Source: a virus. From it: DNA of 53,906 nucleotides. This document shows, one piece after another, positions 1 through 53,906 of this stretch. The DNA lies in IMG/VR virus record IMGVR_UViG_3300025929_000021, positions 1-53,906 of that record; one strand, 5' to 3'. The notes under the pieces were generated by a model. It was given only the letters and a program-made list of their open reading frames with translations. It ran no database searches and had not been told where the DNA came from. The position numbers and the translations under genes were made by a program. Every line of letters begins with the position of its first letter. Position 1 is the stretch's first letter.

Positions 1-145
1 ATGCTCGCCGCGTCCGCCGCGGAGGCGAAGACGACCTGTACTCGCTCGTCGCCGCCGGAGCCCTGCCCCGCATCGCCGAAGACGACGAGGAACTGACCGC
101 GTCCGTCGCTGCCCTGCCTCTCGACACGGAGGCGCTGGGCCGGGC
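1..145. repeat. Terminal overlap, left copy
   Basis: Bases 1-145 repeat bases 53761-53906. The only difference I see is one missing C after position 20 (right copy has a run of C and G one base longer). The overlap lies inside the capsid protease gene, so it is more likely a circular-assembly overlap or permutation junction than a true attachment or cohesive end. The single-base difference breaks the frame here. Confidence 0.9.
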
Positions 146-1024: not shown

Positions 1025-1795
1025 TCAGCAGTCCTGGGCCTGCCAGGCTGCCTCTTCTTCTGCCGCATCCCAGCCCTGCTGGTTCGCACGGGACTGGTCA
1101 GCCACCCACACGCGGGTGATCCCTCGGACCGCCGCAGCGGACAGCCCGAAGCCCTTCAGGAAACTCTCGATCTCCGAGCTGTCCATCGGCACGTTGTCCG
1201 GCCGGGCCCGCACCGCGCCAACGGCGGCGACGGTAGCCCGCGCCCTCTCAATCTGCTTTTCCCAGTGCCTGCCCACGGTGCCCTGCTTCCACTCGACCTG
1301 CCCCATGGCCGTGCCGACCGACTTCAGCGGCCGGTGGTCGGGGCGTGTCCACTGGCTCTTGACCGGCTTCCCGGCCAGGACATCAAGGGTCGGCTGGTGC
1401 GGCTCACCGGCGAAGTGCTTGGCGAGCACCTGATCGAGGATGGTGCGGTCCTTGACCAGTTCGGCGAACAGGGTGACGCAGCGGTGCAGCTTGCGCCGGT
1501 CCACGTCTTCGAACATGAGCCGGTCCTGCCGGAGCACGCCCATGGATGCGGTAGCCAGCCGGATCCTCAGGGTGTCGTCGTCCAGGTAGGTCAGTGCTTC
1601 CGCCTTGTCGGCGAGCCCGTAATAGTAGGCTGTTTCGCTCTTGGCGAACACCCTGAGCTGCGGGAAGACGTACCACATCCAGTGCGTCTCCTTGACCCCG
1701 GCGGCAATCTCGCGGCTGATCTTCGGCCACTTCTTGTCCTGCGCGTGCCGGAAACGGGCGATGCTGTTGGCCTGCTTGGCAGGGTGCAGCGGCAT
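1025..1795 (-). CDS. DUF1810-like protein with a phage-specific C-terminal extension
   Basis: It encodes 256 residues. The first 140 or so fit the DUF1810 pattern I know: an N-terminal F-x-x-AQ stretch, then the hallmark His-Trp-Met-Trp-Tyr-x-Phe-Pro-Gln, then Ser-x-x-A-x-Tyr-Tyr with an EALxYL-type segment and conserved Arg-Leu. Family members have about 140 residues, so the C-terminal 110 residues are an extra domain of unknown type (Trp- and Ala-rich, ends near Cys). The biochemical role of DUF1810 is not established; it is a small enzyme-like fold. The ATG at 1795 overlaps the upstream stop by one base (TGATG), so translation is probably coupled to the winged-helix gene. Confidence 0.7.
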   Translation of the reverse strand: MPLHPAKQANSIARFRHAQDKKWPKISREIAAGVKETHWMWYVFPQLRVFAKSETAYYYGLADKAEALTYLDDDTLRIRLATASMGVLRQDRLMFEDVDRRKLHRCVTLFAELVKDRTILDQVLAKHFAGEPHQPTLDVLAGKPVKSQWTRPDHRPLKSVGTAMGQVEWKQGTVGRHWEKQIERARATVAAVGAVRARPDNVPMDSSEIESFLKGFGLSAAAVRGITRVWVADQSRANQQGWDAAEEEAAWQAQDC

Positions 1796-2013
1796 CACTT
1801 CACCGACCGGAAGAAGTAGAACCGGCCATCCCGGACGGTCTCGACCTGTCCGTTGCGACTGAGTACCCGCAGGATGCCGCGCGCCCGGTCAGTGGTCATC
1901 TGGTAGCCGTCTCGACGGACCTGCCACATCACGTCGGCGGCGTGGAACAGCGTCTTGTTGCTGGTCTTCTCGACGGCCTTCAGTGCGGCCAGGACGATAT
2001 CTGCGTTGGTCAT
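1795..2013 (-). CDS. Small winged-helix DNA-binding protein
   Basis: It encodes 72 residues with a helix-turn-helix pattern over about residues 18-55 and a C-terminal beta wing rich in Arg, Phe and Tyr. The start ATG at 2013 has AAGGAGGCGG eight bases upstream. It is the first gene of a minus-strand unit (2013 to 535) transcribed away from the plus-strand unit at 2105. Such a protein could control its own divergent promoter region. It is one of three small HTH proteins here that could bind the dispersed GATCNAAAAC motif; nothing in the sequence favours one of them. Confidence 0.65.
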   Translation of the reverse strand: MTNADIVLAALKAVEKTSNKTLFHAADVMWQVRRDGYQMTTDRARGILRVLSRNGQVETVRDGRFYFFRSVK

Positions 2014-10380: not shown

Positions 10381-10392
10381 GGGAGATCTCCG

Positions 10393-10638: not shown

Positions 10639-11053
10639 CCTCTACCAGGAGGAGATCCGGGGCATCCTGCACGAGCTGGTGGGCAAGGATGTCGCCCGGG
10701 TCACCCTGAAGGTGCTGAACAGGGCGCGCGTCATGACCCCGGTGCACACCGGGAACCTGCGCGCGTCCCACCAGATGAAGCTGACCAGCACCACCAGCAA
10801 GGTGCGCGGCGAGGTCTTCACCCGCGTGAAATACGCTCTACCCGTGCACGAGGGCCGCCGCCCGGTGGTGATCTACCCGAACACCAAGCAGGCCCTCGCG
10901 TTCCGCTGGCACGGCCAGCAGTTCGTGCGCAAGTGGGTGTCGCAGCCTGCCCGGCGGGGTCGCCCGTGGCTGCGGGACGCGCTTCGGGAAGTCGCGGCCG
11001 AAGAGGGCTACGCGATGCACAGCAGTGCCGCCGCCGACTCCGGCGGCGAGTAG
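10613..11053 (+). CDS. Tail completion / HK97 gp10-like protein
   Basis: It encodes 146 residues. The sequence Thr-Pro-Val-His-Thr-Gly-Asn-Leu-Arg-Ala-Ser (about residues 42-52), followed by a Tyr-Ala-x-x-Val-His-Glu-Gly segment and a C-terminal Arg-Pro-Trp-Leu-Arg-Asp-Ala-Leu helix, is the signature of HK97 gp10/minor tail neck proteins that close the tail tube end. The start ATG lies inside the previous gene. A GGAGGAG site leads into the next gene. Confidence 0.7.
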   Translation: MPVTSARVDLYQEEIRGILHELVGKDVARVTLKVLNRARVMTPVHTGNLRASHQMKLTSTTSKVRGEVFTRVKYALPVHEGRRPVVIYPNTKQALAFRWHGQQFVRKWVSQPARRGRPWLRDALREVAAEEGYAMHSSAAADSGGE

Positions 11054-37481: not shown

Positions 37482-37590
37482 GATGGGGTAGCTCAACAGG
37501 CAGAGCAGCCGTGCGGGGAAATGCTTCCGGCTTCCCGGGATGTCGCGAAGCGGACCGCACCGCGTTGGAGGTTCGAATCCTCCCCCCATC
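37482..37590 (+). tRNA. tRNA-like gene A with oversized anticodon arm
   Basis: Acceptor GATGGGG (37482-37488) pairs with CCCCATC (37584-37590); D arm GCTC-AACAGGCA-GAGC (37491-37506); T arm GGAGG-TTCGAAT-CCTCC (37567-37583). Between D and T arms there are 60 bases instead of about 22-35; GTGCGG (37511-37516) pairs with CCGCAC (37555-37560) around a 38-base loop. Anticodon not identifiable. No CCA encoded. Confidence 0.45.
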
Positions 37591-37602
37591 ACGCAGAGGG
37601 CC

Positions 37603-37726
37603 ACCAGGACCGGTCGTGTCGCCATGTGCGGCTCGTCCGGGCGCTGAACCTGGCGGCAACCGACGCTCCCGGGCGATATCCCGGGGAACGCAAGTCGCAC
37701 GTCAGGTTCGATCCCCTGGCTCTGGT
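37603..37726 (+). tRNA. tRNA-like element F (124 bases, uncertain)
   Basis: ACCAGGA (37603-37609) pairs imperfectly with CTCTGGT (37720-37726); a T-arm-like TCAGG-TTCGATCC-CCTGG is at 37702-37719. The middle holds a CCCGGG-CGATAT-CCCGGG hairpin. D arm not found. Low confidence; it may be another structured RNA. Confidence 0.2.
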
Positions 37727-37745
37727 GAGGGGCGTGCGGCGATAG

Positions 37746-37832
37746 GTAGGGGTGGTGTAAGCAGCACACCGGGCTTTGGGGCATTGGCTCTGCGGACCGG
37801 AGGTGCGGGTGCAAGTCCCGCCCCCTGCACCA
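37746..37832 (+). tRNA. tRNA-like gene B with 24-base anticodon loop
   Basis: Acceptor GTAGGGG (37746-37752) pairs with CCCCTGC (37822-37828), followed by ACCA, so the CCA end is encoded. D arm GTGT-AAGCAGC-ACAC (37755-37769), lacking the usual GG; T arm GCGGG-TGCAAGT-CCCGC. CCGG/CCGG bracket a 24-base anticodon region. Same D and T arm sequence as element C at 39746. Confidence 0.45.
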
Positions 37833-38061
37833 CCGAAACGAGTTAGCGGTACCCGGCAGGTGAAACCGGCCCGAACCCCCTCAGCGATTGCCCGGGGCTC
37901 GGTGCGGACGCGTGGGAACCGTGGAGGACGCCGGTCCAGCTGGCGTGACGCCGGAGAGACGGAGCGGGATCTTGCCTTGCACGGCATGTTGCCCGCTGGT
38001 AACAGGAACGGCAGGGAAGCGCCGAGCGGGTTGACACGCGGAGTGCTGAAGCGCCAAGTAC
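37833..38061. other. Non-coding GC-rich stretch
   Basis: Between tRNA-like genes B and E. No gene or clear T arm recognised; a few short inverted repeats (for example ACGCC...GGCGT near 37930). Nothing further supported. Confidence 0.4.
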
Positions 38062-38133
38062 CGCGCTGTAGCTCACTGGATAGAGCGGGGGTCCAAAGCC
38101 CTGTCAGCACCGGGTTCGATTCCCGGCAGCGCA
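38062..38133 (+). tRNA. tRNA-like gene E (closest to tRNA-Trp, short anticodon loop)
   Basis: Acceptor CGCGCTG (38062-38068) pairs with CAGCGCA over six of seven; D arm GCTC-ACTGGATA-GAGC; T arm CCGGG-TTCGATT-CCCGG. The anticodon arm GGGGT-CCAAA-GCCCT has a five-base loop, as if CU were lost from a CUCCAAA tRNA-Trp loop. No CCA encoded. Best canonical of the set. Confidence 0.55.
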
Positions 38134-38322
38134 CGGGATGCAGGGAAGGTGGGACCGAGTATCCGCCACCGCCCTGCTGTCGGTCATCGATGAGGGCGGC
38201 AAGGCGTCCGAAGATGATCGGCGGGTTGCCGCAGATCACCCGGGGTTTCCCTCGTGGCCACGACGCGGAAAAGATCTCCGGCAACCCACCCTGCAACCCC
38301 TCAACCGAAGGGCGCACCCCTC
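38134..38322. other. Untranslated gap before 38323
   Basis: About 190 bases after tRNA-like gene E. A 62-codon frame from 38138 has no ribosome-binding site and looks random. No gene supported. Confidence 0.4.
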
Positions 38323-38490
38323 ATGAAAAAGTGCTCCTGCGGCCTCAACACCTGGCCGCTCAACAAGACCATCACCATGTGCCCACGCTGCGACACCAGC
38401 GCCCAGCACAGCGGAACGCGCGTAGGCCCGCCCAACGCCCCCGGCACCCGAAACGGCTGGTTCAACGCCACCTTTGGAGACCGCAAGTGA
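38323..38490 (+). CDS. Small zinc-ribbon-like protein
   Basis: It encodes 55 residues with Cys-Ser-Cys-Gly and Cys-Pro-Arg-Cys pairs. The ribosome-binding site is weak (GAAGGGCG). It overlaps the next gene by four bases. Function unknown. Confidence 0.5.
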   Translation: MKKCSCGLNTWPLNKTITMCPRCDTSAQHSGTRVGPPNAPGTRNGWFNATFGDRK

Positions 38491-39104
38491 CCGACCCGCA
38501 CGCCGACGAACCGCCCGCCACCACCGGCCAGATCGCCGCCAACGCCCAGAACATGCCGCCCGGCGACATCCACGACGTCACCAGCTTCAACGAGAACACC
38601 CTCTCCAAGGTGCTCGCCGGGCTGAGAGCAGCCAACATCTCCGACGAGGCAGCAACAGACGCCATCCTGGAGATGCAGAACCGGGGCATCCTGTTCCGCG
38701 AAAACCCCATCGACACCGGTAAGGCCACCGACGGCTACCACAGCTTCAAGGAGCTGTACGCCCACCGCGAAGCCCTCACCGCCGTCCTCGCCACCATCGC
38801 CGCCATCGACGACGACTCGTGGCGCTCCAGGCAGCACCACCCCGACGATGCCCCCATGTTCGACGGGTACTTCATCGTCGGCATCAACCTGCCCGCCGGG
38901 CAGATCAGCTACCACCAGCCGCTGTCGCACTGGCATCTGTTCGACGCCGTGCCCGAGCTGGGGCACGCCCCGAAGTACGACGGGCACACCTCCGCCGACG
39001 TGGTGGCCAGGCTCCACGACTTCGCCGACGTCCTGAAGACCGCCATCAACGAGGGCAACGCCACCCTCCGTGGCACCGACGAAAGCGCAGGCACCGATGA
39101 GTGA
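38487..39104 (+). CDS. WDGH-family-like phage protein
   Basis: It encodes 205 residues from a GTG overlapping the previous stop. The conserved core runs Tyr-His-Ser-Phe-Lys-Glu-Leu-Tyr-Ala-His-Arg, Gly-Tyr-Phe-Ile-Val-Gly-Ile, Ile-Ser-Tyr-His-Gln-Pro-Leu, and Tyr-Asp-Gly-His-Thr-Ser-Ala-Asp-Val-Val, matching a phage family known by its (W/Y)DGHT motif. His and Asp residues suggest a metal or nucleotide-handling site. Function not established. Confidence 0.6.
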   Translation: MTDPHADEPPATTGQIAANAQNMPPGDIHDVTSFNENTLSKVLAGLRAANISDEAATDAILEMQNRGILFRENPIDTGKATDGYHSFKELYAHREALTAVLATIAAIDDDSWRSRQHHPDDAPMFDGYFIVGINLPAGQISYHQPLSHWHLFDAVPELGHAPKYDGHTSADVVARLHDFADVLKTAINEGNATLRGTDESAGTDE

Positions 39105-39219
39105 CAACTACCGGGACGGCTGCTCCGGCAAGAAGTGGCAGCTCAGCTGGTTCATCGTCCAGGCCGTCTACTTGGCAGCCTGGCTCACCGATCCGCGCAA
39201 GAAGAAGGGCACCAAGTGA
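39097..39219 (+). CDS. Very small membrane-associated protein
   Basis: It encodes 40 residues, with a hydrophobic Trp-Phe-Ile-Val-Gln-Ala-Val-Tyr-Leu-Ala-Ala-Trp-Leu segment and a Lys-Lys-Lys end. It overlaps both neighbours (ATGA and GTGA), which supports it as a real gene. Confidence 0.55.
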   Translation: MSDNYRDGCSGKKWQLSWFIVQAVYLAAWLTDPRKKKGTK

Positions 39220-39614
39220 AGTTCAAGCACCTCGCGCTCGCTGTCTCCCTGCTCCTCGGGGGCATCGGCGGCTCGTTCGTCGCCAGCCCGGCGCAGGCCG
39301 CCGCCAGCGACTGCCCCAGCGGCTACTTCTGCATCTGGACCGGCGCGGGTTACACCGGCTCCCGCTTCCAGTACTCGAACAGCGACTTCCTGGCCGGGCA
39401 GAACAACGGCATCCGGCTGGTCTCCGGGGTCACGAACCGGGGCTACTCGTTCTACGACCGGGTCGGCAAGGCCGTTTACATCATCGACGGTCCGGCCTGC
39501 GGCAACAGCACCTGGAACCGGGAGATGCAGAACGGTCAGGCCGCGTCCGGCGGCGACTGGGGCGGCCGGGTGTCCAGCATCCAGCTGTGGAACGCGTTCC
39601 CGCTGAGCTGCTAG
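39216..39614 (+). CDS. Secreted peptidase inhibitor family I36-like protein
   Basis: It encodes 132 residues from a GTG. A Sec signal peptide (basic start, hydrophobic 6-23, cleavage after Ala-Gln-Ala near residue 28) is followed by Cys33-Pro-Ser-Gly-Tyr-Phe-Cys39-Ile-Trp and a Tyr-Thr-Gly-x-Arg motif typical of the I36 family of Streptomyces inhibitors (crystallin-like fold). It would be released by the infected host. Possibly a host-derived moron that protects from extracellular proteases. Confidence 0.75.
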   Translation: MKFKHLALAVSLLLGGIGGSFVASPAQAAASDCPSGYFCIWTGAGYTGSRFQYSNSDFLAGQNNGIRLVSGVTNRGYSFYDRVGKAVYIIDGPACGNSTWNREMQNGQAASGGDWGGRVSSIQLWNAFPLSC

Positions 39615-39622
39615 TTCAGCGC

Positions 39623-39722
39623 GCTCCGGCTGGTGCAAGGCTCCTGAGGTTCAGACCCTAGACATGGTCAGTCGCGGCCTCCGCCTCAGGGGACAGCGTG
39701 GTTCGATTCCCGCTCGGAGCAC
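39623..39722 (+). tRNA. tRNA-like gene D with long anticodon region
   Basis: GCTCCG (39623-39628) pairs with CGGAGC (39715-39720), then ACCA. A T-arm-like GTGG-TTCGATT-CCCG lies upstream of the acceptor strand with an imperfect stem. TGAGG at 39644-39648 can pair with CCTCA 36 bases later; alternatively TTCAGAC reads as a Leu (CAG) anticodon loop with a long variable arm. About 100 nucleotides. Class uncertain. Confidence 0.4.
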
Positions 39723-39733
39723 CACTGCACAAC

Positions 39734-39743
39734 GTTTTCGATC
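39734..39743 (-). repeat. Dispersed motif GATCNAAAAC, copy 16
   Basis: On the minus strand CATGATCGAAAACG, in the gap between tRNA-like genes D and C, three bases before gene C. Confidence 0.95.
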
Positions 39744-39745
39744 AT

Positions 39746-39813
39746 GGCCGCATGGTGTAAGCAGCACACCGGACCCCACGCCGGAGGTGCAGGTGCAAAT
39801 CCTGCGGCGGCCA
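39746..39813 (+). tRNA. tRNA-like gene C, truncated
   Basis: GGCCGCA (39746-39752) pairs with GGCGGCC (39806-39812); D arm GTGT-AAGCAGC-ACAC; T arm GCAGG-TGCAAAT-CCTGC. Only 68 nucleotides. The anticodon arm is a CCGG/CCGG stem with an eight-base loop ACCCCACG. Paralogue of gene B. Anticodon not assigned; CCC or CCA would be readings. No CCA encoded. Confidence 0.4.
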
Positions 39814-40144: not shown

Positions 40145-40846
40145 ATGCAATTCCAGACGTTCAGCGGGTGGCTCTCCGCCAACCCGAACGCCACCGACGA
40201 CGAGAAGCTGACCGTTCTGCGCGGCTACATCTTCGCCGCCGCCAAGGAGAGCGTGGACGACGGCTACATCACGGCCGGGTGGGCGAACAAGAAGCTCCTG
40301 AGCCTGGGCATCGTTGCCCGCCTCGACACCCGGAACAGCTACACGATCGAGGTCCCCGCCAGCGGCAAGGCGGTGCTCAGATTCTCCGCCACCAGCCGCG
40401 CGCAGGCGATGTCCCTGGCCGCATCCGCCATGGGCAGCAACCGCATCTCCGTCAGCGACGTCACCTACGACCACGCCGCCATCACCATCAACGGCCCCGA
40501 GGACACCACACCGGTCGCCCCCGACAACGCTCCGGCCACCGTCGCCGACCTGCTCGCCAAGCTGCGGGAGACGGTCATGCTGGCGCATGTCGCCGGTCCG
40601 CGCATCTGCTCCAGCGGGGCCAGCGACCTGCTCGCCGAATTCGGGCTCGACCCGCTGCCGGAGACGAAGCGGTTCACCGTCCGCCGCGACGCGGAGGTCA
40701 CCCTCAAGACCTCCGTGGAGGCGTACGACGAGGACACCGCCAAGCGGGTTGCCGAATGGCGGTGGGAGGACGCCCACAACGGCTACTCCATCGCCGAGGT
40801 GATCGCCGCCGAGGACACGTACACCGTCACCGGCGACATCGCCTGA
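40145..40846 (+). CDS. Hypothetical protein in its own unit
   Basis: It encodes 233 residues with AAGGAGGAG upstream. Helical N-terminus, then alternating strands and helices; the C-terminal part has Arg-Arg-Asp-Ala-Glu-Val-Thr and Trp-Arg-Trp-Glu-Asp-Ala. No family recognised. Promoter-like sequence upstream and terminator downstream make it a single-gene unit. Confidence 0.6.
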   Translation: MQFQTFSGWLSANPNATDDEKLTVLRGYIFAAAKESVDDGYITAGWANKKLLSLGIVARLDTRNSYTIEVPASGKAVLRFSATSRAQAMSLAASAMGSNRISVSDVTYDHAAITINGPEDTTPVAPDNAPATVADLLAKLRETVMLAHVAGPRICSSGASDLLAEFGLDPLPETKRFTVRRDAEVTLKTSVEAYDEDTAKRVAEWRWEDAHNGYSIAEVIAAEDTYTVTGDIA

Positions 40847-40878: not shown

Positions 40879-40919
40879 GAAGCGCCCCCCGTCCACCGGA
40901 CAGTGACGGGGGGCGCTTC
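40879..40919. terminator. Terminator
   Basis: A 15-bp perfect stem (40879-40893 with 40905-40919), 11-base loop, after the gene at 40145 and before the macrodomain gene. Confidence 0.85.
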
Positions 40920-40941
40920 CCTTACCCCCTGGAGGACCGCA

Positions 40942-41505
40942 ATGCTCCGCACACTCGAACGCCTCACCGACTACTTCCGCCGGATCAAGACGCCGCGCCT
41001 GGAACTGGTCCTGGGCGACATCACGACCATCGCGTCCGACGCCATCGTCAACGCCGCCAAGTCGTCCCTGCTGGGCGGCGGCGGAGTGGACGGGGCGATC
41101 CACGCGGCGGCCGGTCCCGGCCTGCTCGCCGAATGCCGGGCCATCCGCCGCACCACCCGCCCCGACGGCCTGGACACCGGCGGTGCGGTCACCACCGCTG
41201 CCTATGACCTGCCCGCCCAGTACGTGATCCACACGGTCGGCCCGGTCTTCGCCCGGCAGCCGTACGTTTCGCTGCTGCGCTCCTGCTACACCCGGTCGCT
41301 GGCCGCTGCCGACGAGCTGGGCTGCGAGACCGTGTCGTTCCCGCTGATCTCCGCCGGGGTGTACGGCTGGCCGGTGCCCGACGCGATCGTGCAGGCGTCC
41401 ATCGCGATCGGCAGCTTCCGGGCCAGGCACGTCCGCACGGTCCGGCTGGTCCTGTTCGATCAGCGCACCTACGACCTGGCACGCACCGTGCTGGGCCGCC
41501 CCTGA
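40942..41505 (+). CDS. Macrodomain protein (ADP-ribose binding / ADP-ribosylhydrolase type)
   Basis: It encodes 187 residues with GGAGGAC upstream. It has the full macrodomain core: Gly25-Asp-Ile (adenine-binding Asp), Val-Asn37-Ala-Ala, Gly45-Gly-Gly-Gly-Val-Asp-Gly-Ala-Ile-His54, then Val-Ile-His-Thr-Val-Gly-Pro and Phe-Pro-Leu-Ile-Ser-Ala-Gly-Val-Tyr-Gly. The catalytic Asn and GGG(V/I) loop suggest the MacroD/YmdB type that removes ADP-ribose from acidic residues or deacetylates O-acetyl-ADP-ribose. The phage also encodes an ADP-ribosyltransferase-like domain (46191), so the two may work together. Confidence 0.85.
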   Translation: MLRTLERLTDYFRRIKTPRLELVLGDITTIASDAIVNAAKSSLLGGGGVDGAIHAAAGPGLLAECRAIRRTTRPDGLDTGGAVTTAAYDLPAQYVIHTVGPVFARQPYVSLLRSCYTRSLAAADELGCETVSFPLISAGVYGWPVPDAIVQASIAIGSFRARHVRTVRLVLFDQRTYDLARTVLGRP

Positions 41506-42154: not shown

Positions 42155-42619
42155 GTGGGGCTGCTGACCAAGCGCAAGACCGTCCCGGCCGGAGGCGACG
42201 CAGGACCCGGCACCCGCCCGGCCAACGCGCTCGTCGGTGCAGCCGTCCCGATCGATCTCAAAGAAGCGTCGTCGTGGCAGATGTTCAAGCTGGGCGACCA
42301 CCGCTGGCAGCACGAGGCATGGCGGCACTACGACATCTGCGGCGAAATGCGGTTCGTCGTCAACTGGATTGGCAACGCCGTGTCCCGCTGCCGCATGTAC
42401 GCCGCCGAAGTCGGCAAGGACGGTGTCGTCGGCGATGAGGTGAAGGACGAGCGGATCCGCACCATCGCGGAGACAATGTTCGGCACCCCCGCGTCGAAGG
42501 CGCAGGCGCAGCGACTGCTGGGAATCAACATGATGGTCGCCGGGGATGTGTTCATCGTCGCGGAGGGCTACCAGAACGCCTCTGAGGACAAGTGGTACGT
42601 CTGCTCGTCGTCGAGGTGA
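42155..42619 (+). pseudogene. Portal protein, N-terminal part (frame broken near 42606)
   Basis: It encodes 154 residues from a GTG, with Glu-Ala-Trp-Arg-His-Tyr-Asp-Ile-Cys-Gly-Glu and a Val-Asn-Trp-Ile-Gly-Asn helix typical of portal N-termini. The frame ends with a TGA right after Lys-Trp-Tyr-Val-Cys-Ser-Ser-Ser. The next frame continues naturally (Glu-Val-Thr-Arg-Arg-Gly-Glu), so one base appears to be missing around 42606-42614. It may be a sequencing or assembly error or a real mutation; a -1 slip would restore it. Confidence 0.75.
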
Positions 42620-44091
42620 CCCGGCGCGGTGAAGAGATCGTCGTCCGCCGGTCCATCACCCACGGCGGCGGCCAGTACACCCTGAACCCGCAGAAGGATC
42701 TACTGATCCGGGCATGGAATCCGCACCCCCGCCGGTACGACGCCGCCGACTCCACCGTCCGCGCCATCCTGCCCGTTCTGCGGGAGATGGAGCAGCTGAC
42801 GAAGCGCGTGTTCGCCGAGCTGGACTCGCGCCTGGCCGGTGCGGGGATCCTGCTTCTGCCGGACAGCATCGACTTCCCGGCCGCCCCGTCGGATGTTCCC
42901 GGCTCGTCCGTGCCGGGCGGGATCGACGGTTTCGCGCAGCTGTTGCAGCGCACCATGGCGACGTCGATGCAGCAGCGGGACAGCGCGGCGGCGATCGTGC
43001 CGATCGTGTTGCAGGTGGCGACGGACGCTCTCGACAAGATCAAACACTTGACGTTCGACTCGGCGATCAGCGACAAGATCACCGAGATGCGCGAGGCCGC
43101 CGTCAAACGCATGGCCATGAGCCTCGACATCCCCCCCGAAGTCCTCACCGGAATGGGCGGCAGCAACCATTGGTCGTCGTGGCAGATCGAGGAATCCTCG
43201 ATCAAAATCCACATCGAACCCCTGCTGATCCAGCTGGCCGACGCCCTCAACGTTGGCTACTTCCAGCCCGCCCTCAAGGCCACCGGAATCCCCGACCCGG
43301 AGAAATACACCCTCTGGTTCGACATTGCCGCCCTTGCCGTCCGGCCCAACCGGTCCGACCAGGCGTTGCAGTTCGTCGAGAAGGGCCTCATCTCCGACAA
43401 GGCCGCCCGCGAGAACGCGGCGTTCACCGAAGACGACGCCCCCGACGACACCGAGAAGGTGTACGAGCTGGTCAAAGCCCTCGTCATGGCACAGCCCCAG
43501 TTCGCCACCGACCCGGCCGTGCAGAAAGTGCTCGGCCTGCCCGCCATCCAGGCCGCCCCCACCGGCGCGCCCGCGCCCGGCCAGGGCGACCTGATGCCCG
43601 GCGACCCCGGATACGACGAGGCGGGCACCGAACCGGCCGACGCCGGGAACCGGGACCTGCCGCAGTTCCCGTCCGTCGCCGACGCCGAGCAGGGCAACGT
43701 CGGCACCGGCAGGCAGAAGCTGAAGTCGCTCGCCGCGTCCGCCAAGACGCAGGACGACGGCCCGCTGTTCTACGCCGCTGATGCTGCCGTGCGCCGCGCG
43801 CTGGAGCTGGCCGGTGGTCGCCTGGTGCCCGGCCCCGCGCGGGCCCGGTACGGGGTGCCGAAGCACGAGCTGCACACGCGCGTTGTCGCGGCACCCGACC
43901 GGGCGCAGTCGCTGCTGGCCGGAGCATGGACGCACGTGCGGGAACAGGCGACGCAGCTGGGAGCCGACCCGGATGCGCTCGAATCGGTGCTCGGCGGTTA
44001 CTGCGCGGAGCTGCTGACGCGTGGCCTGGTGCACGAGCCCGGCTACCTGCGCGCGATGCTGCACGAGACGCGAGGAGACCTGATTTCATGA
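42592..44091 (+). pseudogene. Portal protein, C-terminal part
   Basis: It encodes about 490 further residues. Features include Leu-Ile-Arg-Ala-Trp-Asn-Pro-His-Pro-Arg, Arg-Glu-Met-Glu-Gln-Leu and Asp-Ile-Pro-Pro-Glu-Val-Leu-Thr-Gly-Met, as in portals of siphophages. The first in-frame start (GTG 42592) lies before the frameshift but in the other frame and has no ribosome-binding site. The full portal would have about 640 residues. It ends in a TGA overlapping the next gene start. Confidence 0.8.
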
Positions 44092-44527: not shown

Positions 44528-45931
44528 ATGCCGACGCCCGCCCTGCCTGACGCCGCCGCCCAGAAAGCGGCGGCCGTGGACGCCTTCGCCCAGTACGAGC
44601 CGCCCCTGTATGAGGCGTATCTCGACATGATGATCGAGTGGCTGGCCGCCGTGAAAGCGGCCATGTTCGCCGGTGGCGTTGCCCGCCTCGCGCTCATGCC
44701 CGACCCGATGACCGTGTTCTCGCAGGGCCCGAAATGGGCGGCCGTCAGCGCCAAATACACGGCCGCCGTAGCCCGTGAAGTGCTGGCCGCCCCTTACCGG
44801 AACGTCCTCGGTGACGGCACCCTTTTCGACACCCGGCCGTTCGTCCGGAACTGGATCGCCGACGCCGAGAACCGGCTCCGGCAGGTGCCGGACGAGGTGT
44901 ACGGGCTCGTCTCCCACATCATCGACTCCGGCGCGACGAATGGGGCCAGCATCCCCGACGTGCAGCAGCAGATCGAACAGCTCTTTTCCGACACTGGCGT
45001 CCAGCGGTGGAAGAACCGGGCCCGCACCGTGGCGCGGACCGAAGTCGTCGGCGCGTACAACGGCGGCCTGCACGACGCCTTCCAGATGCTCACCGAAGCT
45101 GACGGCGAGACGGAGTACGTCCATCGCTGGCTGGCGACCGAGGATCAGCGGACTCGCCCTGACCATCGGGAGGCCGACGGCCAGGTGCAGCCGTGGGGCA
45201 CTCCGTTCCGGCTGGGCCCCGGCGGGGCGGTGCTGATGATGCACCCGCACGCCGCCGGGGCACCGGCAAACCAGGTGGTGAACTGCCGTTGCGTGGAGCT
45301 TATGGAGATCAAAAACGAGCCTACGTCGATGCGGAGCAGGGGTTACAAGCCGTCACCCCTCGTCGCCTCCGGAAGCACCCTGCTCCAGAGCGCCTGCACC
45401 GACGGGCAGTTCTGCCAGCAGACCCACAAGCCGGGCCTCTGCAAGGGGCAGAAGCGCGGCCAGGCCGAGCCCGGCTACGAGCAGGAGACGAAGAAGAACC
45501 CGGCGCAGGTCGCGAAGACCGCCGTGAACGGCCTGAACCAGGCCATTGCGCAGGCGCAGGCCGTCGCCTCCCAGAACCCCGGCAACCCGAAGCTGGCGGC
45601 GATGGCCCGGCGCGCCATCGCCGGATACCGGCGGGCTCTCATCCCGCACCAGCAGAAGCTGCGGGACGCCGCCCGCAAGGACGTTCAGGCCACCCGAACC
45701 GGCATCCGCGACGCCCAGCAGCAGGACGCCATGGACCGGCAGAAGCAGCACCAGCGGGACACCCTGAAGCGCCGGGCGGAAAAGATCCTGGAGCGCCGGG
45801 CGGAGCAGAAGAAGCTGGCGGGCATGTCGAAGAAGCAGCGCGCCGCCTACCAGAAGACGAAAGCGGCAGCAGCACGCAAGCAGCAGCAGGCGCAGGAGGA
45901 CAAGACGATCCGGGACGCGGGCCGCGCGTGA
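44528..45931 (+). CDS. MuF-like minor capsid protein
   Basis: It encodes 467 residues. The MuF domain (residues about 120-260) includes Arg-Thr-Val-Ala-Arg-Thr-Glu-Val, Trp-x-x-x-x-Asp-Gln-Arg-Thr-Arg-Pro-Asp-His and Pro-x-x-x-x-Asn-Cys-Arg-Cys. Residues 285-312 hold a Cys-x-Asp-Gly-x-Phe-Cys and His-Lys-Pro-Gly-Leu-Cys-Lys-Gly motif also found in the giant protein at 46191. Residues 330-467 are a long basic coiled-coil tail. MuF proteins bind the portal and can be injected with DNA. Motif copy 18 lies in the gene. Confidence 0.8.
   Translation: MPTPALPDAAAQKAAAVDAFAQYEPPLYEAYLDMMIEWLAAVKAAMFAGGVARLALMPDPMTVFSQGPKWAAVSAKYTAAVAREVLAAPYRNVLGDGTLFDTRPFVRNWIADAENRLRQVPDEVYGLVSHIIDSGATNGASIPDVQQQIEQLFSDTGVQRWKNRARTVARTEVVGAYNGGLHDAFQMLTEADGETEYVHRWLATEDQRTRPDHREADGQVQPWGTPFRLGPGGAVLMMHPHAAGAPANQVVNCRCVELMEIKNEPTSMRSRGYKPSPLVASGSTLLQSACTDGQFCQQTHKPGLCKGQKRGQAEPGYEQETKKNPAQVAKTAVNGLNQAIAQAQAVASQNPGNPKLAAMARRAIAGYRRALIPHQQKLRDAARKDVQATRTGIRDAQQQDAMDRQKQHQRDTLKRRAEKILERRAEQKKLAGMSKKQRAAYQKTKAAAARKQQQAQEDKTIRDAGRA
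45307..45316 (+). repeat. Dispersed motif GATCNAAAAC, copy 18
   Basis: GGAGATCAAAAACG in the MuF gene, read as Glu-Ile-Lys-Asn. Confidence 0.85.
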
Positions 45932-46190: not shown

Positions 46191-49100
46191 ATGATCAAAA
46201 ACAACACGTATGATCAGCGCATGGCGAAGCTCGGATCCCTGATCGCGGCAAGCGTGTCGTACAACCCCGTGCCGCTCGACCTCGACCCGATCGTCCGCCA
46301 CATCGAGCAGTCCATCCCCACCCTGACCGCATCCTTGCGGGACTCGACCGTCGGCATGACGCAGGCCCTGCGCGCCGCCCTTACCGCCTGGACCAACCAG
46401 GACGACGACGCACACGAAATGTGCTCCCTGGTTGCCTGCCGCACCCCGCTGCACCCCGGCCCCTGCAAGGGCTGGAAAGGCACCCTGCACGCCGTCTCCC
46501 CGCACATCTGGCGGCAGATGGAGGAGGAGCGGGTCCGCAAGGCCAACGAGCGCCGCGTCAAGCGGATCGCCGACCTGCGCGCACAGGGCAAGCCAATCCC
46601 GCGCCGCATGCTCGCCGAGATCAAACCGAAGCCTGCCCCGAACAGCGGCCCGTCCGGCGCGCACCCGGCGAACAACGTCACCCCGACCCCGCTGGGCCAG
46701 GTCGGGCAGAAAGCCGACCTCACCGGCGGGCAGGCTCATCAGGCGTCGCAGGCCATCAACCAGGCCGCCGGGATCAAGCCGAACACGGCGAACCTGCCGA
46801 AAGGCCCGAAGGGCAAGAAGCCGACCGTTGCCGGGCGCGGCCCGGCGTTCGTCATCACTCAGCCGAAGGTCACCGACACCTACAAGCTGGACAAGGCCGC
46901 CAAGCTCACCCCGCAGGAGTGGGACGGCCTGTCCACGGCTGACCAGAAGGCCATCCGTGACGAGCTGGAAGCGATCAAGCAGCGCGGGTTCGGGCCGCAG
47001 CAGACGAAGGCTGATCAGCTGCTCGCCAAACTCCAGCCGAAGCCAACCCTGTCCGCCACCAAGACGCCCGCCCCGGCCGCGCCGAAAGCCCCCAGCACCC
47101 CCACGCTGACCCCCGGCAAGGTCTCCCTGGGGCAGGCCACCAAGATGCCCGCCGTGCCCTCCACGGCAACGCAGGGACCCGCCGCCTCCGTGGCGCAGGC
47201 GAAGTCGGCAATCGCCATCACCGAAGCCATCCACGGCCCGCAGGCGACCGACGTTCAGAAGCTCGCGGCTGCCCTCGACGTGATGAAAGCTCAGGGTGAC
47301 CTGAAGCAGCAGCCGAAGTTCCGGCTTCTCGTCGACCGGCTCGCGCAGGACGCCCTCAAGAAGGCGAACGCCGACAAGATGCCCGGACTCGGGCACGGCG
47401 CGAACGACATCAACATCACGACGATCAACCATGCGATCCGCGACCACATCGCCGACGGAAAGCCCGGCCTGCCGCCGGTCATCCAGCAGATCAAGGACCA
47501 CCGGGACAAGGTGAAGGCGGGCAACGCCCCCACCGCGCCCATCCCGGCCGTGCCTGGCAGCACCCCGAAGGTGTTCCCCCAGCACGTCCAGCACGCCCGC
47601 GCTGTCGCCGGACGCGCCACCGGCCGCCCCACCTCCAAGGCCCACCTGGAGGCGTACGGGAAGCTCACCAAGGACGACTTCGACCAGCTGGACGCGAACA
47701 CCCAGAAGACGATCCGCGACGACCTGGCCAACGCGTCCGCGAAGTTTCTTGACCCGAAGAAGAAGCAGGAAGCGCGGGATCTTCTCGATCGTTTTGGATC
47801 AAGGCACCCGGTCGACGGCGGCTCGAAGTCGGCGAACCCATCCGCCCCGTCGGTCACCCCGGCCAGCCCGGCACCGAACAACGTGCCCGCCCCGCACCCG
47901 AAGGGGTACAGCGACCCGCAGGACCAGGCGGTCAAGTCGGCCAGCAACGCCAGCAGCGACCACGGCGATGTTCTGCGGGACGTGGCCCGGCTGTCCCCGA
48001 AGCAGGTCAACGACCTCCAGGACAGCGACAAGAGGGCCATCACGCACCGCCTGGCGATGATCGCCACCGACAAGAAGGCCACCGACGTCCAGCGGCAGCA
48101 GGCCGCCGCGTACGGCCGGATCATCAACTCGGGCAGCCCCGTCCTGGCGAACCAGGCCGATCACAAGCTGTCCCTGGGGGAGATCCACCGCTCCGAGCAG
48201 GTATCCGGGCTGCATCTGAAGACGAAGGCCCTCGACGCGGCCGGAGACGCGAAGATCCCCGCGCCGACCCGTGTCGCCGCCCTGGGAGGCATGTCGAAGG
48301 GTCAGTTCGATGCGCTGACCAGCAACGAACAGCGCAAGATCCTCAACGCCCTGCACGGCGTGCACCGCAACACCAACGCCCCCGGCTACACCGGTGCCGC
48401 CGACGACGAGGCCGCCGCCGCGATCACCAAGTACACCGGCCAGCATCCGGCCGTCCACTACATGCTCCAGGCCGAGCAGGACTACAAGGCTGGGCGCATC
48501 AACGCCGATCAGCTGCACGGGGCCCTGCTGACCGCCCGAGTCAAAGCCCCCCCCACCACGCCGGAGGGCCAGGCCGCCCGCGAGCAGCTGGACAAGGAGG
48601 CCGCTCGCATCGCCCGCGAGCAGACCGGCTTGCCCACCCACATCCGCGTCAACCTGGCCGGGGAGCCGACCTACGGCACCAAGGCGTACAGCGCCATCGG
48701 GCTTGCCCGGATGGCGCACATGTGGGACGACGCCCCGCGCCTGAGCCACAGCGACATCGCCGCCCTGTTCCGGCCCACCGAAGACGACCTGAAGGCCGTC
48801 GACCCGATCCACGCGCAGGCCGTCCGCGACCTCCAGCAGAACGTCTTGCGCACCGGCCTGAAAGGCCAGCCCGGCGTGCCGACCGGCAGCCCGTGGTCGC
48901 AGGCCACCCGGGACGCAGCCACCGCCGCAGCGCTCGGAACCAGCATGTCCGGCGGCGAGATGACCCGCGACGGCCTGGCCCGGTTCAAGGCGCAGCCGGA
49001 CGACATCAAGAAGTTGATCGTCGCGAACGTCCGCACCCAGCTGCTGCACCGTGGCGACGACCACGGCAAGGTCGAAACATGGCTGACCTTGCGCGAGCTG

Positions 49101-51587
49101 GAAGGCGCGCAGCCGCTCACCGGGGCCGAGCGGGACGCCCTGGTCCTCGCCTCGAAGCGGTACTCGACCATCGGCAAGATGGACGCCTACCGGAAGCTCG
49201 ACCCGGCCGACTTCCAAAAGCTGCCCGACTTCGCGCAGAACGCCATCAAGTCCGACCTCGACGAGCTTCACCAGAAGGCCGTGCGGGCGGGCGCGGCCAC
49301 GCCGTTCACGGTGTACGACAATGTGCTGAAACTGCTCCCGAAGGCCGTCGACGCGCACCTGAGCGGTGCCCGGATCGCCCACACCGACCGGGATATGCGC
49401 AACGCGTCAGGCGTCGCCCAGTACGGGGCCGACATCATCAAGCCCGAAGACCGGGTAGGCACGTACAACCGGCTCGGCCCGGCCAAGCTCGACAGCCTGC
49501 CGTCCACGGCCCGCAGCGCGGTCACCGCCGACCTGACCCGCATCGAGGCCGACGGCTCGCTGCCGTTGCAGACCCGCTACGACGCCGCCATGAACGGCCA
49601 GGTCTTCCTGCGCAAGACCAGCAACATCAAACTCACCGTCGATCAGCTGTCCGCCGCGCAGGCCGCCGACCCGCACCCCAACGGCCGGTACGCCGACGCC
49701 GCCGCTCTCACCAGCTTCAGCAGCCTCAGCAAGGCCGACTACGACGGGCTCACCCCCACACTGCGCGAGGCAATCGACGAGCGGATCAAGGGGCTGCCGG
49801 GATCCGACCAGCAGCTGCTGAACGCGAAGTTCCACCCGCAGGCCGCCGCCGCCACCCCGGCTGGTGTCGTACCCACCCCGGCCACCCCCGGGCCGATCCC
49901 GCCGCACGTTCAGGCCGCCCTGGACACCGTGTACGGCGTGCACCCGAAGTCGCACACCATGGCGCACCAGCTGTCCACGTACGGCGCGCTGAAGGGTGCC
50001 GACTTCCACGCGTTCAACCCGCAGGAGCAGCAGCAGCTTCTGTCCGACCTGTCGTTCATCGCCACCACGGCGAAGGGCCCGTCGTCGGACAAGGCGAAGA
50101 AGCTGATCGACCGCTTCACCCCGCCCGGCACCCCCTCCGGCCAGTTGCCCGGCAACCCGGCGATCATTCCCCCGGCCAACGCGGTCCCCGGCCAGCAGCG
50201 CTACGCCACCCCGCTCAAGGGCCTGTCGAAGGCGGCGAACAGCGGCAAGTCCGGCGACGGCTGGCTCACCCTGCCAGGCGGACGCCGCGTCTGGGGCCAC
50301 TACGGGGCCGCCGGTCTGCTCATTAAGCACACCGACCCGAACAGCGGGGAGGAGCGCTACTTGATGGTGCAGCGCGGCCCCGCCATCTCCGACCCCGGCA
50401 AGTGGACGTTCCCCGGCGGCGCATCCGACTCCCTGGAAACCCCGCACCAGGGCGCAACCCGCGAAACGATCGAAGAACTGGGTCTCAAGGACGACCAGTT
50501 CAAGGACGCGCTCGTGCACGGCGACTTCACGTACAGCGTGCCGGGCTCCACCTGGAAGTACACGACTGTCGCCGCGTCCGTGCCGACGATGTTCAAGCCG
50601 AACCTGTCGACGGCGCACGCCCGCGCGGAAACGTCCGACGCGAAGTGGATGACCCTCGACGAGATTCGGGCGCTCGACAAGTCGGGCAAGCTGCACCACC
50701 CGATCGCGGGCGGCCAGCTGGAGAAGAACGTCATCAGCCTGTACCCGAGCGCGGGTGCGTCGGCCGCCGGGAAGCTGGGGCAGATCGCCCGGCCCGGTCC
50801 GGTTACGAAGCGCCCGAACCGGCTGACGATGCCCGCCGGTGGCCGCCAGGCCCCCGCCAACTTCAACGCCTGGTCAAAGCCGCACAAGGAGTCGAAGGGC
50901 AAGAACCTGGTGGCGGACAAGGCGGCGATTGACGCCATGCGGCAGAAGGTCAAGCAGGACCGCGTGCTGTACGACGGCAAGACCGCCGACGGCCGCCTGG
51001 CCGCGATCGGCGCGATGCAGGGCTTCGATGACATGCCGACGGTGGAAAGCAAGGCCGAGATCGATCGGCTGCTCGCGACCGGCGACTACATCGAGGCGTG
51101 GCGCGGCGTGTCCGGTGTGGGCGGCTGGTCTGCGCGTTCCCGGGGTGGTTCCGGCGGCAAGACGGCCGCCGACATCAACGAGGAGATGCGGTCCGGCCCG
51201 GCCTATTACGGCAAGGGCATCTTCGGTAACGGCTACTACCTGGCCACGAAGCGGTCGGTTGCCCAGCAGTACGCCGACGGCACCCACGGTTCGATCATGC
51301 GCATCCTGATTCCGAAGGCCGCCCTGACGCAGACCTACGACAAGGTCGAAAAGGAGGCGCAGGCCAACTCCTCGCGGATGTCGAAGGCGAAGGGCGCAGG
51401 CTACGAACTGTCGACGTTCTGGGACCCGGGCCGCTGGGCCGCCGCGAAGGGCCTGGACGGTATCGAGATCAACCCGCACCACCGGGCGCACGGCGGCGGC
51501 GGAGCTAGCCACGTTGCCTCCCCCGGGAAGCCCGCGTTCAACTGGCTGAACCGTTCAGTCCTGATCATCCAGAAGGAGCCGGGCTGA
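46191..51587 (+). CDS. Giant polyvalent-type protein: helical repeats, Nudix and ADP-ribosyltransferase-like domains
   Basis: It encodes 1798 residues. Its first codons are motif copy 19. Residues 75-95 carry Cys-x4-Cys and His-Pro-Gly-Pro-Cys-Lys-Gly-Trp, shared with MuF. Residues about 220-1360 contain at least eight degenerate helical repeats (Tyr/Leu-x-x-Leu-x-x-x-Asp-Phe-x-x-Leu, then Gln-x-x-Ile-x-x-Asp-Leu) joined by Pro/Ala linkers. A Nudix domain spans about 1360-1520 with a full Nudix box (G-x5-E-x7-R-E-x2-E-E-x-G-x) at 1408-1431. An ADP-ribosyltransferase-like domain spans about 1590-1797 (Ala-Trp-Arg-Gly-Val near 1634; Tyr-Gly-Lys-Gly-Ile-Phe-Gly-Asn-Gly-Tyr-Tyr near 1673; Glu-Ile-Asn near 1757). 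Lying beside MuF, it fits phage polyvalent proteins thought to be injected with DNA (inference). Confidence 0.75.
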   Translation: MIKNNTYDQRMAKLGSLIAASVSYNPVPLDLDPIVRHIEQSIPTLTASLRDSTVGMTQALRAALTAWTNQDDDAHEMCSLVACRTPLHPGPCKGWKGTLHAVSPHIWRQMEEERVRKANERRVKRIADLRAQGKPIPRRMLAEIKPKPAPNSGPSGAHPANNVTPTPLGQVGQKADLTGGQAHQASQAINQAAGIKPNTANLPKGPKGKKPTVAGRGPAFVITQPKVTDTYKLDKAAKLTPQEWDGLSTADQKAIRDELEAIKQRGFGPQQTKADQLLAKLQPKPTLSATKTPAPAAPKAPSTPTLTPGKVSLGQATKMPAVPSTATQGPAASVAQAKSAIAITEAIHGPQATDVQKLAAALDVMKAQGDLKQQPKFRLLVDRLAQDALKKANADKMPGLGHGANDINITTINHAIRDHIADGKPGLPPVIQQIKDHRDKVKAGNAPTAPIPAVPGSTPKVFPQHVQHARAVAGRATGRPTSKAHLEAYGKLTKDDFDQLDANTQKTIRDDLANASAKFLDPKKKQEARDLLDRFGSRHPVDGGSKSANPSAPSVTPASPAPNNVPAPHPKGYSDPQDQAVKSASNASSDHGDVLRDVARLSPKQVNDLQDSDKRAITHRLAMIATDKKATDVQRQQAAAYGRIINSGSPVLANQADHKLSLGEIHRSEQVSGLHLKTKALDAAGDAKIPAPTRVAALGGMSKGQFDALTSNEQRKILNALHGVHRNTNAPGYTGAADDEAAAAITKYTGQHPAVHYMLQAEQDYKAGRINADQLHGALLTARVKAPPTTPEGQAAREQLDKEAARIAREQTGLPTHIRVNLAGEPTYGTKAYSAIGLARMAHMWDDAPRLSHSDIAALFRPTEDDLKAVDPIHAQAVRDLQQNVLRTGLKGQPGVPTGSPWSQATRDAATAAALGTSMSGGEMTRDGLARFKAQPDDIKKLIVANVRTQLLHRGDDHGKVETWLTLRELEGAQPLTGAERDALVLASKRYSTIGKMDAYRKLDPADFQKLPDFAQNAIKSDLDELHQKAVRAGAATPFTVYDNVLKLLPKAVDAHLSGARIAHTDRDMRNASGVAQYGADIIKPEDRVGTYNRLGPAKLDSLPSTARSAVTADLTRIEADGSLPLQTRYDAAMNGQVFLRKTSNIKLTVDQLSAAQAADPHPNGRYADAAALTSFSSLSKADYDGLTPTLREAIDERIKGLPGSDQQLLNAKFHPQAAAATPAGVVPTPATPGPIPPHVQAALDTVYGVHPKSHTMAHQLSTYGALKGADFHAFNPQEQQQLLSDLSFIATTAKGPSSDKAKKLIDRFTPPGTPSGQLPGNPAIIPPANAVPGQQRYATPLKGLSKAANSGKSGDGWLTLPGGRRVWGHYGAAGLLIKHTDPNSGEERYLMVQRGPAISDPGKWTFPGGASDSLETPHQGATRETIEELGLKDDQFKDALVHGDFTYSVPGSTWKYTTVAASVPTMFKPNLSTAHARAETSDAKWMTLDEIRALDKSGKLHHPIAGGQLEKNVISLYPSAGASAAGKLGQIARPGPVTKRPNRLTMPAGGRQAPANFNAWSKPHKESKGKNLVADKAAIDAMRQKVKQDRVLYDGKTADGRLAAIGAMQGFDDMPTVESKAEIDRLLATGDYIEAWRGVSGVGGWSARSRGGSGGKTAADINEEMRSGPAYYGKGIFGNGYYLATKRSVAQQYADGTHGSIMRILIPKAALTQTYDKVEKEAQANSSRMSKAKGAGYELSTFWDPGRWAAAKGLDGIEINPHHRAHGGGGASHVASPGKPAFNWLNRSVLIIQKEPG
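46193..46202 (+). repeat. Dispersed motif GATCNAAAAC, copy 19
   Basis: CATGATCAAAAACA, forming codons 1-4 of the giant gene (Met-Ile-Lys-Asn). Confidence 0.9.
47791..47800 (-). repeat. Dispersed motif GATCNAAAAC, copy 20
   Basis: On the minus strand TTGATCCAAAACG, variant with C, antisense inside the giant gene. Confidence 0.7.
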
Positions 51588-51826
51588 TGCCGGTTAGTCC
51601 CGTAGGTCAGCTGTTCTACCGCCTCAGCGAAGCGCTGGGGTCGGTGGACGTGCACCCTGATGAGCGCGCCAAGATTCTCGACGCGTGGGCGGAAGCTGGG
51701 GGTGAGGACTCGGCGACCTGGGAGAAGCTGCCGCTGGGCATTCAGCACCTGGTCAGGGAGATCGAGAAGCGGGACCCGCAGTCGTGGGATGATCCTGCCG
51801 ATCTGCCGAGTCAGCAAGGTATCTAG
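51587..51826 (+). CDS. Small acidic protein after the giant gene
   Basis: It encodes 79 residues, starting at an ATG overlapping the previous stop (TGATG). Helical, acidic. Being coupled to a gene with a toxin-like C-terminal domain, it could be an immunity or chaperone protein; nothing else supports that. Confidence 0.55.
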   Translation: MPVSPVGQLFYRLSEALGSVDVHPDERAKILDAWAEAGGEDSATWEKLPLGIQHLVREIEKRDPQSWDDPADLPSQQGI

Positions 51827-52536: not shown

Positions 52537-53906
52537 ATGGGCACCAACTGGAAGATGCCGATTGCCGTCATCGGGAAGCCGACCGGTGACGGCCGCCAGT
52601 TCGACGACGGGGCCCTGTCGCACCGCGACCTGCCGCTGCCGCTGCGGTACGTCCCGTCCGACTCCGGCGGGCACGCGAACGCGGTCATCGTCGGGCACAT
52701 CAGCAAGGTAGGCAAGGAGGAGGACGGCATGCTGCCTGCCTCCGGCGAGTTCTACGACGACGAGACATGGCCGGACGACGTCCGGAACCATGCGATCGCC
52801 GCGATGAAGTTCACGCAGAACAAGGTGATCGGCCCGTCCGTCGACCTGGACAAGGCCGAGATGGAGCACGTGCCGGAGCCGAAGGCGTACGCGGCCTGGA
52901 AGAAGGAGCAGCGCGGCAAGATCAAGGCCGCGAAGATGGCGCACGCCAGCAAGACCGGCTCCGACTGCGGCTGCGCTGCCAACGACGAGCCGATCTTCGC
53001 GGAGGAGGCGTACGACGGGCCCCGGCTGCGGATGGTCCGGTCCGGCCGGATCGCCTCCGCCACCCTCGTGCACATCCCGGCGTTCGCCGAACTGGCCGGG
53101 CACGCTGTGCTGACCGCCGCGAAGAAGCCGAAGGACGCCCCAGAGCCGGTCGGGGAGTCCATGGCCGCCGACGCCGCCATGATCGAAAACGACGACGAGA
53201 TGACGACCGAGCAGGAGGCCCGGGACAAGATGCGCTCGCTCATCGCCGGGGCAGCCCCGGCGACACCCCCAGCCGCATGGTTCGAAGACCCGAAGCTCGA
53301 AGGTCCGACCCCGCTGCACATCGGCGACGACGGCCGCGTCTACGGGCACGTCGCCACCTGGGAAACCTGCCACGTCGGCATTGGCTCGTCCTGCGTCAAG
53401 CCGCCCAAGTCCCAGACCAGCTACGCCTACTTCCACACCGGCGAGATCGTCACCGACGACGGCAACCGGCTGCCCGTCGGCCGCCTCACCTACGGCGCAG
53501 GCGGGCACGCCGGGCCGAACCTCGGATATCGGGCCGCCGCCGAGCACTACGACGTCACCAACAACACGGGTGCCCTCGTGCGCGCCGGTGAAGACGCGTA
53601 CGGCATCTGGGTGGCCGGTGCCGTCGTCCCCGAGGCCGACGACGCCGCTGTCCGGGTGATGCGCGCGACCCCGCTGTCCGGTGACTGGCGGCGCGTCGGC
53701 GGCAACCTGGAAATGGTCGCCGCCCTGCACGTCAACACGGCCGGATTCCCGATCCCCCGCATGCTCGCCGCGTCCGCCGCCGGAGGCGAAGACGACCTGT
53801 ACTCGCTCGTCGCCGCCGGAGCCCTGCCCCGCATCGCCGAAGACGACGAGGAACTGACCGCGTCCGTCGCTGCCCTGCCTCTCGACACGGAGGCGCTGGG
53901 CCGGGC
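52537..53906 (+). CDS. Capsid maturation protease (5' part; continues at base 146)
   Basis: It encodes 456 residues here and about 508 across the junction with the left end. AAGGGG precedes the ATG. The N-terminal domain (Asp-Leu-Pro-Leu-Pro-Leu-Arg-Tyr, Val-Gly-His-Ile) and the Ala-Ser-Ala-Thr-Leu-Val-His-Ile-Pro-Ala-Phe-Ala segment near 170-180 resemble prohead proteases of actinophages. A second region (about 255-400) has Val-Tyr-Gly-His-Val-Ala-Thr-Trp and Cys-Val-x-Pro-Pro. It would process the capsid precursor encoded at 3804. Catalytic residues were not assigned. Confidence 0.75.
   Translation, partial: MGTNWKMPIAVIGKPTGDGRQFDDGALSHRDLPLPLRYVPSDSGGHANAVIVGHISKVGKEEDGMLPASGEFYDDETWPDDVRNHAIAAMKFTQNKVIGPSVDLDKAEMEHVPEPKAYAAWKKEQRGKIKAAKMAHASKTGSDCGCAANDEPIFAEEAYDGPRLRMVRSGRIASATLVHIPAFAELAGHAVLTAAKKPKDAPEPVGESMAADAAMIENDDEMTTEQEARDKMRSLIAGAAPATPPAAWFEDPKLEGPTPLHIGDDGRVYGHVATWETCHVGIGSSCVKPPKSQTSYAYFHTGEIVTDDGNRLPVGRLTYGAGGHAGPNLGYRAAAEHYDVTNNTGALVRAGEDAYGIWVAGAVVPEADDAAVRVMRATPLSGDWRRVGGNLEMVAALHVNTAGFPIPRMLAASAAGGEDDLYSLVAAGALPRIAEDDEELTASVAALPLDTEALGR
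53181..53190 (+). repeat. Dispersed motif GATCNAAAAC, copy 22
   Basis: CATGATCGAAAACG in the capsid protease gene, read as Met-Ile-Glu-Asn. Confidence 0.9.
53761..53906. repeat. Terminal overlap, right copy
   Basis: 146 bases identical to 1-145 apart from one extra C. This copy keeps the capsid protease frame open, so it is the better version. Confidence 0.9.

Follow-up and report, generated by a model that had tools for sequence, protein, structure and literature searches.

Introduction

ADP-ribosyltransferases (ARTs) are paired with the enzymes that reverse their marks in two known arrangements, ART with macrodomain in DarTG and ART with glycohydrolase in DraT/DraG. Here we describe a phage lineage in which both arrangements appear as two interchangeable sets, for which we found no earlier report. 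The stretch analysed, referred to as the window, is one IMG/VR virus record (IMGVR_UViG_3300025929_000021; 53,906 nucleotides), and the element in question is its gene for a stand-alone macrodomain protein at positions 40942-41505. As with the ART DarT and the macrodomain DarG, a probable ART and a macrodomain predicted to erase its marks are genetically kept together in this lineage. However, DarTG-like pairs are adjacent or fused in one operon, whereas the phage genes lie 9.4 kb apart with the portal and MuF genes between them, the ART forms part of a giant protein of the head gene cluster, and sister phages swap both ART and eraser. The sister phages resemble DraT/DraG in pairing an ART with a PF03747 glycohydrolase, but their ART is of the R-S-ExE exoenzyme type, ends a head-cluster protein and is swappable with the macrodomain module.

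Large ART proteins encoded beside portal and MuF genes are also found among the polyvalent and MuF-ART virion proteins (PMC5512222, PMC9503650), including VIP2-MuF of Microbacterium phages (PMC7302621). In the available text of these three reports the packaging of phage ARTs into heads is a prediction, and no matched co-inherited eraser is described outside toxin-antitoxin systems. The MabR prophages of Mycobacterium abscessus and M. chelonae (McProf) are an unrelated, independent case: their genomes combine a MuF-ExE-ART fusion with a glycohydrolase, as in the sister phages described here. Their glycohydrolase, however, is distant from the ART, among genes thought to be expressed in lysogeny, and the available text of PMC9434293 does not note the pairing. 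For stand-alone phage Macro and glycohydrolase enzymes, direct evidence of macromolecular deconjugation outside toxin-antitoxin systems is described as lacking in PMC9503650. The question at stake is whether these phage enzymes act on macromolecular ADP-ribosylation or on small signalling molecules alone.

Two sets of genes are inherited all or none

The lineage consists of two mutually exclusive types, A and B. The window is of type A, a type defined by the following set, in which the gene at 40145 is represented by one of two alleles:

40942..41505, + strand: MacroD-type macrodomain gene, 187 amino acids, above the Pfam and NCBIfam cut-offs and with MacroD relatives in the PDB; proposed cognate eraser of ART-A
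46191..51587, + strand: giant head-cluster protein, type A form, 1798 amino acids, positioned after the portal and MuF genes
50349..50675, + strand: Nudix domain, residues 1387-1495 of the giant protein (Pfam, E 1.6e-13)
50871..51584, + strand: ART-A domain, the C-terminal 238 residues of the giant protein, in type A only; ART-PolyVal and PARP matches in relatives
51587..51826, + strand: small gene of about 79 amino acids overlapping the stop of the giant gene, in 9 of 9 type A and 0 of 9 type B genomes and also after distant Nudix-ARTs
1025..1798, - strand: DUF1810 protein, an Rv1873-like fold with a C-terminal helical domain (Pfam, E 7e-35), in 9 of 9 type A and 0 of 9 type B genomes
40145..40846, + strand: protein without assigned function directly 5' of the macrodomain (the 40145 gene), shared by A and B genomes, with two divergent alleles that follow type

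Type B genomes have the backbone in common with type A (about 75% amino-acid identity in core genes), but the C-terminal half of their giant protein is different and ends in an R-S-ExE ART (ART-B; PF03496, E 2-3e-17) with invariant R, S (STS) and E-N-E motifs. Their 40145 gene is of the second allele, and among their additional genes is an ADP-ribosylglycohydrolase (ARG) in place of the macrodomain. ARG matches PF03747 (E 3.6e-58), and its metal-site motifs TDDTQM, ITHGH and GDSDSI are conserved in 10 genomes. Profile comparison of ART-A with ART-B revealed no mutual similarity.

The relatives used here, 40 records of soil phages, came from a search with the portal protein; the comparison covered 20 relatives and included whole genomes, and types were assigned over 55 contigs. 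Across these contigs ART-A and the macrodomain occurred together in all 12 records spanning both type A loci (window included), ART-B and ARG in all 11 ART-B records, and no record mixed the two types, as checked by a Pfam scan. Among the records from the portal search, Macro and DUF1810 were present in the same near-complete genomes and both missing from the remainder. The preliminary description of the window had named a lack of co-occurrence in relatives as refuting its proposed ADP-ribose system; ART, macrodomain and DUF1810 turned out to be gained and lost jointly despite their separate positions. Seven of the 83 accessory families split perfectly by type, compared with a mean of 0.003 and a maximum of 1 under permutation.

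The types have switched repeatedly. Type mapped onto a tree built from 13 core genes requires 6 changes (bootstrap 5-6), at least 4 of them forced by supported branches, which is as many as with shuffled labels, and the possibility that A and B are merely two clades was rejected (one-clade approximately unbiased test, p 1.5e-60). A portal tree of 32 typed records shows 7 type changes, and the closest relative of the window in it (L014, 94%) is of type B: its flanking head genes are 84-94% identical to those of the window, and its module loci are type B. The sister pair G037 (type A) and G017 (type B) is 90-100% identical in most shared genes, and the loci that differ by replacement are exactly the 40145 gene, the macrodomain, DUF1810 and the C-terminus of the giant protein together with the gene that follows it. 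Between them, the portal, the N-terminal part of MuF, three cargo genes and the scaffold gene are 89-98% identical. Two of these intervening genes are located in the window as follows:

42592..44091, + strand: portal gene (PHROG 776, E 1.7e-123), between the module loci
44528..45931, + strand: MuF head morphogenesis protein (Pfam Phage_Mu_F)

In trees of single genes, one change is enough to separate the types for the 40145 gene (support 100%) and for the N-terminal part of the giant protein, a result reached in 0 of 500 shuffles in either case, and the trees of portal (5 changes), MuF, scaffold, capsid and terminase do not track type. Because recombination shuffles the genes between the loci, the joint inheritance of five separate pieces needs selection, and the matching of transferase and eraser is maintained by it.

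The macrodomain and the giant protein

The open reading frame at 40942-41505 is preceded by a GGAGG ribosome site and encodes a real, complete MacroD-type macrodomain, with predicted hydrolase activity. It scores 128.7 bits against Pfam Macro (cut-off 22; E 1.4e-37) and 212.7 bits against the O-acetyl-ADP-ribose deacetylase model NF001664 of NCBIfam (cut-off 200), and the closest solved structure is the MacroD-type protein 5l9k (E 8e-38). The loop GGGGVDGAIH and the second (glycine) loop ISxGVYxW are conserved across 13 phage homologues, in which N37, D50, H54 and the GVY loop are invariant; a role for the Asp of the catalytic loop of MacroD proteins has been described (PMC7050489). The stand-alone macrodomain with ADP-ribose pocket and catalytic-type loop that had been read from the DNA is thus borne out. 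Like the MacroD-type hydrolases OiMacroD (5l9k), YmdB and MacroD2, the protein has the full domain including the Asp/His loop; it differs from them in having NAAK rather than NAAN and in being part of a phage module. The macrodomains of three relatives (G004, G032 and G037) carry at their N-terminus a hydrophobic stretch that looks like a membrane anchor. Upstream of the gene lies a structure of possible relevance to its expression:

40879..40921, + strand: strong, terminator-like hairpin in the gap that separates the macrodomain from the 40145 gene (folding energy of the region -47.8 kcal/mol, z -3.9)

Of 19 relatives drawn from both types, 17 have a hairpin of similar strength after their 40145 gene.

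The giant protein had been described as ART-like with a Nudix domain. The Nudix part is certain, with a perfect Nudix box in the window that is intact in all type A giants. The ART assignment is probable, and catalytic activity putative. By sequence the domain of the window is below threshold in Pfam (PARP, E 0.02; ART-PolyVal, E 0.038); in a set of 22 relatives there are 18 with an ART-PolyVal match and 12 with a PARP match, the best at E 9.5e-5, and R78 and Y122/Y123 are invariant columns of the alignment. An AlphaFold2 model of ART-A was modest (predicted local distance difference test score 64, predicted template modelling score 0.70) and gave no significant match in Foldseek; on VIA structural re-alignment of the model each of the best 45 rows was an ART fold, with low Z scores (about 2.4-4.2). 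A PDB sequence search with the ART-A profile found no match, nor did a comparison of ART-A with cultured phages and plasmids, and a search of 395 actinobacterial genomes returned two distant relatives (L242, L243). In L242 the Nudix-ART tandem lies within a very long open frame of about 20,955 amino acids, resembling a giant polymorphic toxin.

From the position of its gene, the giant protein with its ART is probably packaged in the virion and injected. A Cys/His motif (CxxxxC...HxPGxCKG or CxxxxCxxxxHPGPCKG) recurs in the N-terminus of the giant protein, in the C-terminus of MuF (44528-45931) and in a second, separate R-S-ExE ART (f113), whose gene stands beside that of the giant protein in some type B phages (G010, G011 and G038) and which bears the motif in G010 and G038. 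The three are distinct members of the head cluster, two of which carry an ART, and the motif is a possible packaging tag.

Other members of the type A set

The DUF1810-like protein that had been reported elsewhere in the window was confirmed at 1025-1798. It resembles Rv1873 (2jek) both in sequence (E 2.3e-15) and in structure (Z 23.0, root-mean-square deviation 1.6 over 136 residues). It was not recognised as one of the folds known from ADP-ribose enzymes, such as NADAR or Macro, 2jek being the sole close structural neighbour and all others having Z below 6, an absence that does not amount to exclusion. Neither do bacterial DUF1810 genes habitually stand beside macrodomains, as just 1 of 80 loci had one inside 8 kb; in this locus, an Oscillospiraceae contig (L170), the two genes are about 2 kb apart (8001-8540 and 10252-10773). 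The two papers found to mention DUF1810 are, by their titles and abstracts, not on ADP-ribose biology. The only NADAR domains were those of G010, G012 and G050, and their distribution does not follow type.

Role of the macrodomain

The co-inheritance described above suggests that the phage removes its own ADP-ribose marks. We consider it probable that the macrodomain serves as matched eraser, or antidote, to ART-A, the transferase that the phage itself encodes and probably carries in its virion, since a match between transferase and eraser is the simplest reason for their co-inheritance. The giant protein with its Nudix domain and C-terminal transferase would be produced from the block of head genes, probably to be packaged and then injected, and the macrodomain would hydrolyse the ADP-ribose attached by ART-A. 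In the sister phages with the R-S-ExE transferase, the glycohydrolase would take the place of the macrodomain. The antidote would most likely act in the cell that makes both proteins during virion assembly, and possibly also later in infection, by clearing injected marks. Action in the producing cell is favoured by gene order, because the macrodomain opens the stretch leading to portal, MuF and giant protein, and because ARG of type B follows a few genes 3' of the giant gene.

Several observations weigh against this reading. The macrodomain lies 9.4 kb from the ART domain and 3' of the terminator-like hairpin, so that co-expression is not assured, and the conservation of this strong hairpin makes co-transcription of the macrodomain with the giant gene uncertain. 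The alignment of ART-A has no invariant Glu in the region of the last strand where a catalytic Glu was sought. The sign test on independent pairs gave p 0.125, the lowest value it can reach because only 4 independent pairs are supported. A distant lineage (G043-G053) has a Nudix-ART like ART-A with the small gene after it, and no macrodomain, DUF1810 or ARG was found in these records, four of which exceed 50 kb; one member has a NADAR domain. Because this lineage does without an eraser of these kinds, an eraser is not obligatory for every ART-A carrier and the pairing is not universal. Finally, most cultured phages with an ExE ART had no ARG match (36 of the 40 ART rows listed, out of 85). A Fisher test of the overlap of ART and ARG in cultured phages was not used: the four overlapping prophages are close kin, and 40 of the 85 ART rows were covered.

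The preliminary description had offered two roles for the macrodomain, removal of the phage's marks and counter-defence. In the latter, the enzyme would destroy ADP-ribosylation by the host (DarT-like) or soluble ADP-ribose signals or toxins of host immunity, independently of the phage ART. Such a role predicts neither that the macrodomain tracks the phage ART type through repeated swaps nor that a change of ART type brings in a glycohydrolase instead. The eraser goes with the type of the phage ART, which favours the first role, and we regard counter-defence as unlikely to be the main one. The preliminary reading is in this way supported in part; its suggestion that the hydrolase is produced later than the transferase is conjectural, and a terminator-like hairpin stands just 5' of the macrodomain gene. 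Erasure could alternatively be directed at marks injected by later sister phages of the same type, thereby shielding the resident infection. The co-inheritance expected from such superinfection control is identical to that observed, and PMC9503650 predicts injection for ARTs encoded close to head genes; no observation favours it over the antidote, and we consider it improbable. Hitch-hiking of loci within about 15 kb, exchanged as one block without functional link, is very unlikely and largely refuted, since, although the circular map places every module locus within a single arc (40.1 kb, across the ends, to 1.8 kb), the portal, MuF and scaffold genes inside the arc do not track type, and the replaced segments of G037 and G017 are separated by genes with 89-100% identity, so that linkage alone is disfavoured.

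Returning to erasure of the phage's own marks, we infer that writer and eraser may also be matched in bond chemistry. ExE ARTs are typically arginine-specific. MacroD enzymes cleave ADP-ribose esters of Asp/Glu and of phosphate ends, and DraG/ARH1 cleave ADP-ribosyl-arginine (PMC7050489). We propose, tentatively, that the two sets could be interchangeable writer-eraser cassettes, combining either a PARP-like ART with MacroD (acidic or phosphate ester) or an ExE ART with a DraG/ARH-type enzyme (arginine), that DUF1810 could be a new family processing or protecting ADP-ribose, and that the 40145 alleles could be ART-specific partners such as inhibitors or packaging chaperones. The prediction is a two-by-two pattern in which each eraser removes the marks of its own writer only. 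The joint, repeated switching of ART and eraser type provides evidence from natural genetics that the eraser works for the transferase of the phage itself, and also a first functional lead for DUF1810, represented by Rv1873 of Mycobacterium tuberculosis, the structure of which was made public in 2007 under the label 'conserved hypothetical protein'.

Other features of the window

The ends of the window (1-145 and 53761-53906) overlap by 145 of 146 bases with one indel, which makes it very probable that the window represents a whole, circularly permuted genome, about 53.8 kb long, though its record class is linear. No megablast match to the right part of the window was found among cultured phages, and no PADLOC defence model matched. 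The portal gene of the window is split into two overlapping frames (42155-42619 and 42592-44091), whereas most relatives have one frame of 586-664 amino acids; the split looks like a frameshift and, as with the indel where the ends overlap, may stem from a sequencing error. In the cargo region that separates terminase from portal (37482-39813), ARAGORN detects one tRNA gene and Rfam four; the first of the four (37482-37591) is longer by about 40 bases around its anticodon arm. The same region encodes a secreted-looking protein of the peptidase inhibitor I36 family (39216-39614).
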